Origin: Oligoflexia bacterium
GTDB taxonomy: Bacteria; Bdellovibrionota; UBA1018
DNA: 45,241 nt
NCBI GenBank assembly: GCA_903881565.1
Contig: CAIRTR010000178.1
Location: 1-45,241, forward strand
Reading direction: 5' to 3'
Shown here piece after piece: positions 5,110-7,116 of this stretch. Position 1 is the stretch's first letter. Every line of letters starts with the position of its first letter. The position numbers and the translations under genes were made by a program. The notes under the pieces were generated by a model. The model searched no databases and was not told the origin of the DNA. It was given only the letters and a program-made list of their open reading frames with translations.

Positions 5110-7011
5110 CTATGCCACCACTGCTTTAGCTTGAGGCCCTACCGCCAAGTACGCGTGAGTAACATACTGCTGAACCACCCGATGCGTATTAAAGAACGAA
5201 GCATTAAGGGAAATCGCGCCTTTCATCACGCTGATCCACCGTGCCCGATTCGTATAAAATAGCGGTGCGATCAGATGCTCTAGTTTTCCGTAGAGATCGT
5301 CTGCATCTCGTTCGTCGACCCCGGGCCCATCCGCACTTTTTCCCCCCATCGACCACCCCGTGATTCCTTCGATGTTTCCTTCAATCCACCAGCCGTCGAG
5401 CACGCTGAAACTTGGAACTCCATTGTGTGCGGCCTTCATCCCGGAGGTTCCGGATGCTTCCAAAGGTCGAAGGGGGGTATTGAGCCAGAGGTCAGCTCCG
5501 GCCGTCAGGACCTGTGCGATCTCGGTGTTGTAGTTTGGCAGGTACACGACCGGCAGTAAACTCCCGAGTTCCTTGGCGGCTGCAAAGATATCGCGGATCA
5601 AAGCTTTCCCCCCTTCGTCACTGGGGTGGGCTTTTCCGGCGAAAATGATTTGCATCGGAGTGTTTTCGGCAATCCGCTTGAGTCGGGCGAGATCATGAAA
5701 GATCAGATCCAGTCGCTTGTAGATCGTTGCTCGGCGTGCGCATCCGATCGTCAAGACATCAGTAGAAAATACGGCGCCAGTTTTGTCCTTTACCATCTGG
5801 ATGAGAGTTTGCTTGGCCTTCTGGTGAGCTTTCCAGACTTCTTGAGCTGGAATACTTGCTGCCTGACGGAGCATCGCAGGGTCTTCGCGCCACACGGGGA
5901 CGTAGCGATCATAAAGGTCCCGAAAACTTTCGCAGGTCCACGTTCCTGAGTGGACGCCATTGGTGACGTGATGGATTTCATAACCTGGGAACATGCCTTC
6001 GGACATCTGTTGATGTTTCAGGGCCACGCCATTCACAAAATGGCTGAGGTTTAGCGCAATCTGGGTCATGTTCATTCGATCAGGTCCTCCGATCATACGG
6101 AGGACCTCTTCAGGATAGGTAGCTCCCAGAAACTCTTTAACCAAGCCGTATTCAAATTGGTCATGACCCGCAGGGACTGGGGTGTGGGTCGTGAAAATGC
6201 AGCGGTTCTGAACGTAGGTATAATCCAGTTTCTTTTCCAAACCCGGCTTGGAGGCTGCCTCCGAGAAAAGAAGTTCGACTGCAGCTAGACTCGCGTGCCC
6301 TTCGTTGAGATGAAATTTTTGGATCGCGGTGTACTTGAGCATCTGCAGAATTCGGACGCCGCCAATACCCAGAACGGCTTCTTGCAGCAGTCTCAGGCGT
6401 GGCCCGTTGCCATAAAGATAATCAGTGATGTGGCGGTCTTCGTCGTTATTGGTGGGAATATCGGTGTCGAGTAAAAGAATCGGTACCAAGTAGCCATCAT
6501 GTCCGCGGATGTCATATTGCCACGCCTGAATGCGAACTTGCCGTCCTCTCAGCGTCACGTCCACCGTCCCTGGGAGCAATCGCAGAACTTGTTCGGGCGC
6601 CCAGCGGACGGGTGTTTCTTCTTGAGTGCCGTCGTTCTTTAAGTGTTGATCGAAGTAGCCGGAGCGATGCAGAAGGGTCACTGCAACAATGGGGATATGA
6701 AGGTCTGCGCTTGATCTTAACGCGTCTCCCGCCAGGACGCCAAGACCGCCCGCGTAAGTTGGCATTCTTGGGTCAATTGCGATTTCCATCGAGAAGTAGG
6801 CAATCAATCTTTGTTCTGCACTTAAATTCAAATCATGCACCGTGGTCTGATTGTTCGAAGGGCGCTGCCCAAATTCCTGACGGCAGAGCTCGGAGCAAAA
6901 ATAGAAGGTTTTCCCTTCATGAATCAAATTGATAGCGGTTGCAGGATCGACGGGCATTCCGCAAATTGGATCTTTGAGTATCGGCAAAATGGTGGCGATT
7001 TCTTGTGACAT
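5110..7011 (-). CDS. Alpha-glucan phosphorylase (GT35, short form) with N-terminal YHS domain
   Basis: The enzyme releases glucose-1-phosphate from glycogen or maltodextrin. Residues about 15-50 form a YHS domain ('DPICGMPVDP' ... 'YFCSELCRQEF'), a metal-binding module. The catalytic part begins with 'AYFSMEIAIDPRMPTYAGG', diagnostic of the short bacterial/archaeal phosphorylases (TIGR02094 type). It ends with 'EASGTSGMKAAHNG' near residue 524, whose Lys should carry pyridoxal phosphate. I chose the ATG at 7011 (633 aa). An ATG at 7095 would give 661 aa but would leave only 21 bp to the divergent map gene. The YHS fusion is unusual. The phosphorylase call is firm; the YHS role (metal or redox control) is open. 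Confidence 0.88.
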   Translation of the reverse strand: MSQEIATILPILKDPICGMPVDPATAINLIHEGKTFYFCSELCRQEFGQRPSNNQTTVHDLNLSAEQRLIAYFSMEIAIDPRMPTYAGGLGVLAGDALRSSADLHIPIVAVTLLHRSGYFDQHLKNDGTQEETPVRWAPEQVLRLLPGTVDVTLRGRQVRIQAWQYDIRGHDGYLVPILLLDTDIPTNNDEDRHITDYLYGNGPRLRLLQEAVLGIGGVRILQMLKYTAIQKFHLNEGHASLAAVELLFSEAASKPGLEKKLDYTYVQNRCIFTTHTPVPAGHDQFEYGLVKEFLGATYPEEVLRMIGGPDRMNMTQIALNLSHFVNGVALKHQQMSEGMFPGYEIHHVTNGVHSGTWTCESFRDLYDRYVPVWREDPAMLRQAASIPAQEVWKAHQKAKQTLIQMVKDKTGAVFSTDVLTIGCARRATIYKRLDLIFHDLARLKRIAENTPMQIIFAGKAHPSDEGGKALIRDIFAAAKELGSLLPVVYLPNYNTEIAQVLTAGADLWLNTPLRPLEASGTSGMKAAHNGVPSFSVLDGWWIEGNIEGITGWSMGGKSADGPGVDERDADDLYGKLEHLIAPLFYTNRARWISVMKGAISLNASFFNTHRVVQQYVTHAYLAVGPQAKAVVA

Positions 7012-7116
7012 AGTAGCTGATTTAAGAGTGCAGTGCGCGTGCCACTGCCCTGTGTGATTCCTGTCATCTCGAGGGTTCATGGATGCAAATTGCAAATCTT
7101 GTGCTAAAGTACTGAA

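Follow-up and report, generated by a model that had tools for sequence, protein, structure and literature searches.

The stretch of DNA analysed here (the window) comprises 45,241 nucleotides of a contig from an Oligoflexia bacterium. On its minus strand, positions 5110..7011 hold a gene for a YHS-GT35 alpha-glucan phosphorylase of 633 aa, identified from its open reading frame (ATG at 7011, stop codon at 5110-5112, 633 codons without an internal stop) and from domain profile matches. The GT35 catalytic domain (residues 70-622; 5146..6804, minus strand) was delimited by its match to TIGR02094, by alignments and by a fold match. With an E value of 2.4e-158 and 528.6 bits against a cut-off of 191.7 it belongs to this family, and it covers profile positions 1-599 of 600, a complete short-form phosphorylase. 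The catalytic motifs FTTHTP, RRATIYKR and EASGTSGMKAA were intact; the codon of K526, placed within EASGTSGMK by the alignments, lies at 5434..5436 (minus strand) and marks the position of the pyridoxal-phosphate lysine. Together with R426-R427, K432 and H276, which we likewise take to be GT35 catalytic residues, K526 was invariant in an alignment of 9 proteins and also aligned to solved phosphorylases. In the Leptolyngbya protein (L053:11992-13851) Lys replaces the Glu of EASGTSGMK (RPLKASG), at a position near the cofactor lysine that is normally conserved. No DUF3417 match was obtained when the window protein was searched with domain profiles.

At the N-terminus, residues 13-52 (6856..6975, minus strand) matched the Pfam YHS profile PF04945 with 32.3 bits against a gathering score of 30.3, and a genome-level search recovered the same segment at 6856-6975 with 37 bits. 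The initial annotation, which had described an in-frame fusion of a YHS domain to a complete GT35 enzyme, was thus borne out, given that both profiles score above their cut-offs within one uninterrupted frame. The YHS domain carries the putative metal ligands D14, C17, C39 and C43, a set named by analogy to the proposal (PMC4626032) that one Asp and three Cys of YHS domains serve as ligands for transition metals. An AlphaFold model built from a 20-sequence alignment had a mean pLDDT of 80.7. The YHS domain appeared in it as a confident unit (block means of about 82-88), residues 51-64 between the two domains (6820..6861, minus strand) had a pLDDT below 50, and the best solved match to the GT35 fold was the glycogen phosphorylase of Segatella copri (9l6i). 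In this prediction the YHS domain forms a unit of its own, joined to the enzyme by a linker of low confidence.

The fusion is present in at least four bacterial phyla. Apart from the window it was found at 10 further loci, in Acidobacteriota, in Desulfobacterota and on cyanobacterial plasmids, so the possibility that it was confined to this assembly, raised in the initial annotation, does not hold. The fused proteins were 52-57% identical to the window protein and aligned with it from the YHS domain onward. The fusion occurred in 3 of 396 Acidobacteriota genomes (including a Blastocatellia MAG), in 3 of 345 Desulfobacterota genomes (one copy with a TAG near the C-terminal end, leaving a 601-aa frame) and, among the 369 genomes from the phylum to which the window belongs, in 1, namely the window genome. 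In cyanobacteria it was found in five plasmid records of four species, where the public annotation reads alpha-glucan (family) phosphorylase. No fused copy was detected among 350 Chloroflexota genomes at the threshold used, the pattern was not matched in viral contigs, and no phage record matched above 36% identity (identity alone being scored). The contig itself was consistent with its genome, as the helicase encoded next to the fused gene shares 61-72% identity with its counterparts in genomes of the same family; this match and the recurrence of the fusion elsewhere ruled out an assembly artefact or contamination.

The history of the fusion was examined in a tree of the GT35 core from which the YHS domain was excluded (91 rows, 11 of them fused). 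The fused rows needed one state change, compared to a mean of 10.6 after shuffling, and formed two clusters with support of 99, one of 8 rows including the window protein and one of 3 Desulfobacterota rows, scattered among many unfused relatives. A single origin of the fusion is consistent with this tree but unproven, because the branch uniting all 11 fused rows was unsupported (16). In three of the four cyanobacterial species the plasmid carrying the gene was assigned to a conjugative type, and this, together with the scatter across phyla amid unfused copies, points to lateral spread of the YHS-GT35 gene family. An unfused GT35 island carrying phosphoketolase, ATP-cone and MBL genes beside a CusA-type transporter was also shared, at 84-92% identity, by a genome from the same phylum as the window (L129:1-9408 in G602) and a plasmid of Criblamydia sequanensis (L058), an identity that likewise points to lateral transfer between phyla.

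In a tree of the YHS domain only (42 columns, with some of the comparison loci retrieved by means of the window's own YHS peptide), ten fused YHS domains grouped together and that of the window stood apart on a long branch. A second, independent origin of the window YHS domain was considered and set aside, given that one clade for all fused YHS domains was not rejected (AU p = 0.153) and that the GT35 core groups the window protein with the other fused copies. Capture of the domain from a metal ATPase of the same genome was unsupported, because the genome-level search found no other YHS domain there.

The putative ligands were the same at all 11 fused loci, and the dN/dS ratio of the YHS frame was 0.035 and 0.137 in the two cyanobacterial pairs with a measurable dS (a high one in one of them), which indicates that the frame is under purifying selection in these pairs. 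These values bear on the suggestion in the initial annotation that translation might begin after the YHS segment. Such a start is physically possible because in-frame GTG/TTG codons follow the segment (V58, L61 and L68), but it is disfavoured by the conservation of the YHS frame. The same values, and the invariance of the ligands, argue against the YHS domain being a neutral passenger, joined to GT35 when adjacent genes fused by chance and without effect on the enzyme; the occurrence of YHS genes near GT35 genes in some islands and the divergence of the window YHS domain would fit such an event, which we regard as hardly probable.

The genes surrounding the fused copies were scored under a single rule, in which metal-efflux or copper genes were counted within 9 kb at 57 loci (11 fused and 46 unfused). 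Such genes were found near 7 of the 11 fused and 4 of the 46 unfused genes (Fisher's exact test, p = 3e-4, kinship ignored), a comparison in which the flanks were of unequal length and several were short, some of the reference genes had been taken from the very plasmids being scored, and relatedness was uncorrected. When only chromosomes were considered, the corresponding numbers were 3/7 and 2/43 (p = 0.016, kinship again ignored). At one locus (L161) a P-type ATPase fragment lay just outside the 9 kb limit. On the cyanobacterial plasmids the fused gene was located in heavy-metal islands among heavy-metal or cation P-type ATPases, with stress genes such as those for universal stress proteins near some copies and, in at least one of the four islands, standalone YHS proteins, DUF2933, DUF5676, MerR, four-helix copper proteins or phytochelatin synthase. 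Genes of carbon metabolism also occurred nearby: phosphoketolase comes after the fused gene in Leptolyngbya, pfkA adjoins it or lies within about 0.5 kb at four loci (L117, L118, L160 and L161), and lactate dehydrogenase, GlgX, GH57 or a CBM48 protein was found near some copies. At L160:971-1126 a standalone YHS gene of 51 aa, starting 28 bp past the stop codon of the fused gene, lies between the latter and pfkA. In two Acidobacteriota (L116:9265-9690 and L118:9339-9815) a Cys-rich small protein is encoded immediately upstream of the fused gene; it contains the motifs CRGCCG and CAGC and matched no Pfam or NCBIfam profile.

The window copy, by contrast with these islands, had no metal-efflux or copper gene within 9 kb; it is solitary, with peptidase and helicase genes on its flanks. 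The short divergent region between the phosphorylase gene and that of the M24 peptidase contains an imperfect inverted repeat (7027-7051; 9-nt arms, 7-nt spacer), which may be due to chance. Metal islands also harbour several unfused relatives (L058, L059, L129 and L176), and the YHS domain is therefore not needed for the association with such islands. These two observations, and the YHS domain of toluene-4-hydroxylase, which is without a known metal role (PMC4626032), speak against a metal-sensing function.

Several properties speak in its favour and uphold the link to metals drawn by the initial annotation: the four putative ligands are invariant, metal genes are commoner near fused genes, and a copper-responsive YHS enzyme has been described. 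This enzyme, a YHS-adenylyl cyclase of Mycobacterium phlei, is activated by 1-10 uM Cu2+ only when its YHS domain is present, shows no activity with Zn, Fe, Cr, Co or Ni, and loses the copper effect upon chelation with EDTA (PMC4626032). Like the window protein it consists of an enzyme, a short linker and a YHS domain with the same set of one Asp and three Cys, but the enzyme is of another type and its YHS domain is C-terminal rather than N-terminal; the copper response was demonstrated for the cyclase (PMC4626032) and, by analogy, might extend to the phosphorylase. The heavy-metal islands around the cyanobacterial copies, the adjacent pfkA, the standalone YHS gene at L160 and the prediction of the YHS domain as a separate unit speak for metal sensing too. 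From the copper-switched cyclase, the invariant Asp and Cys residues and the low dN/dS of the YHS domain we infer that metal binding to the YHS domain tunes the phosphorylase, and the finding of the fusion in at least four phyla, in many cases close to genes for metal resistance, suggests that the use of stored sugar may be under the control of metal exposure.

In the reading that we favour, the family would consist of laterally spread, metal-stress-linked, short-type (TIGR02094) glucan phosphorylases with a tethered N-terminal metal-sensing YHS domain; with binding and control judged from sequence and analogy, it has in our view an even chance of being correct. According to it, a soft metal, most likely copper, would bind D14, C17, C39 and C43 and thereby alter the packing of the tethered YHS domain on the GT35 core or on its dimer, and this would switch or tune the enzyme as it releases glucose-1-phosphate, the substrate being glycogen or maltodextrin. 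During metal stress the released sugar might then feed glycolysis (pfkA adjoins the fused gene at four loci) or enter the phosphoketolase route (the neighbouring gene in Leptolyngbya), and this flux would pay for metal efflux. A bolder version, plausible yet somewhat short of an even chance, is that of a metal-gated glycogen phosphorylase: copper, or a soft metal akin to it, would act through the fused YHS domain as a direct switch for the breakdown of storage glucan, and the mobile gene family would thereby link metal resistance to an emergency supply of carbon and ATP.

Other functions of the YHS domain would account for part of the same evidence. It could hold Zn or another metal permanently and stabilise the enzyme or its oligomer without any sensing, as in L24e, a related TRASH-domain protein in which the bound metal has a structural role (PMC4626032). 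The predicted confident fold of the domain agrees with such a structural knuckle, whereas the many close relatives without YHS, the predicted flexibility of the linker and the association with metal-efflux genes, which it leaves unexplained, make it rather unlikely. The low-confidence linker in the model would also suit a docking function, in which the phosphorylase is held to a partner, e.g. a protein consisting of YHS alone or a metal ATPase contacted at its YHS region, and supplies sugar phosphate and ATP to the efflux pump. Standalone YHS genes and YHS-bearing ATPases do share the same islands, but given that no further YHS domain was found in the window genome we consider docking improbable. 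Finally, the three cysteines might act as a thiol redox switch or soak up metal as a sponge without directed control of the enzyme, to which the stress-gene neighbours such as universal stress proteins would be suited; this appears very improbable, as the Asp is conserved as much as the cysteines and the loss of the copper effect with EDTA in the cyclase speaks against an oxidation mechanism (PMC4626032).

The YHS and GT35 modules are each known, and their combination was without mention in the literature found. In a search mostly outside subscription journals no paper joining a YHS domain with a phosphorylase was found, and nothing relevant or useful was obtained on glucan phosphorylases on metal plasmids or islands, on the TRASH domain with glycogen, or on copper and bacterial glycolysis; the combination may already be listed without comment in domain databases. 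To our knowledge phosphorylases are controlled by phosphorylation, by small-molecule effectors such as AMP, or by partner proteins. If metal sensing through the fused YHS domain is true, a metal-responsive module would add an input of a new type to the control of glycogen use, and it could account in part for the location of genes for glucan phosphorylase, phosphoketolase and phosphofructokinase beside heavy-metal genes. The phosphorylase would also be a second enzyme, after adenylyl cyclase, in which YHS could be tested as a general plug-in metal sensor.

Compared to known proteins, the window protein resembles the TIGR02094 phosphorylases in having the whole profile, the catalytic motifs and the fold, but carries a YHS domain that is absent from the nearest solved enzyme, 9l6i. 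Its YHS domain shares the canonical DPxCGM...FCxxxC pattern with the YHS domains found in heavy-metal P-type ATPases and in standalone proteins; unlike these, the fused form is a soluble metabolic enzyme, and the ten fused YHS domains that grouped together form a group of their own. The window genome encodes a second GT35 protein with a TIGR02094 domain (L021), which is 37% identical to the window protein and differs from it in its fusion partners, a glycogen synthase domain and DUF3417, and in lacking YHS. The open frame in question (G000:C201:13473-15278 together with its 5' part) is 1429 aa long and combines Glycogen_syn (GT3-like), DUF3417 and GT35, and similar long frames were also present in genomes of the same family.
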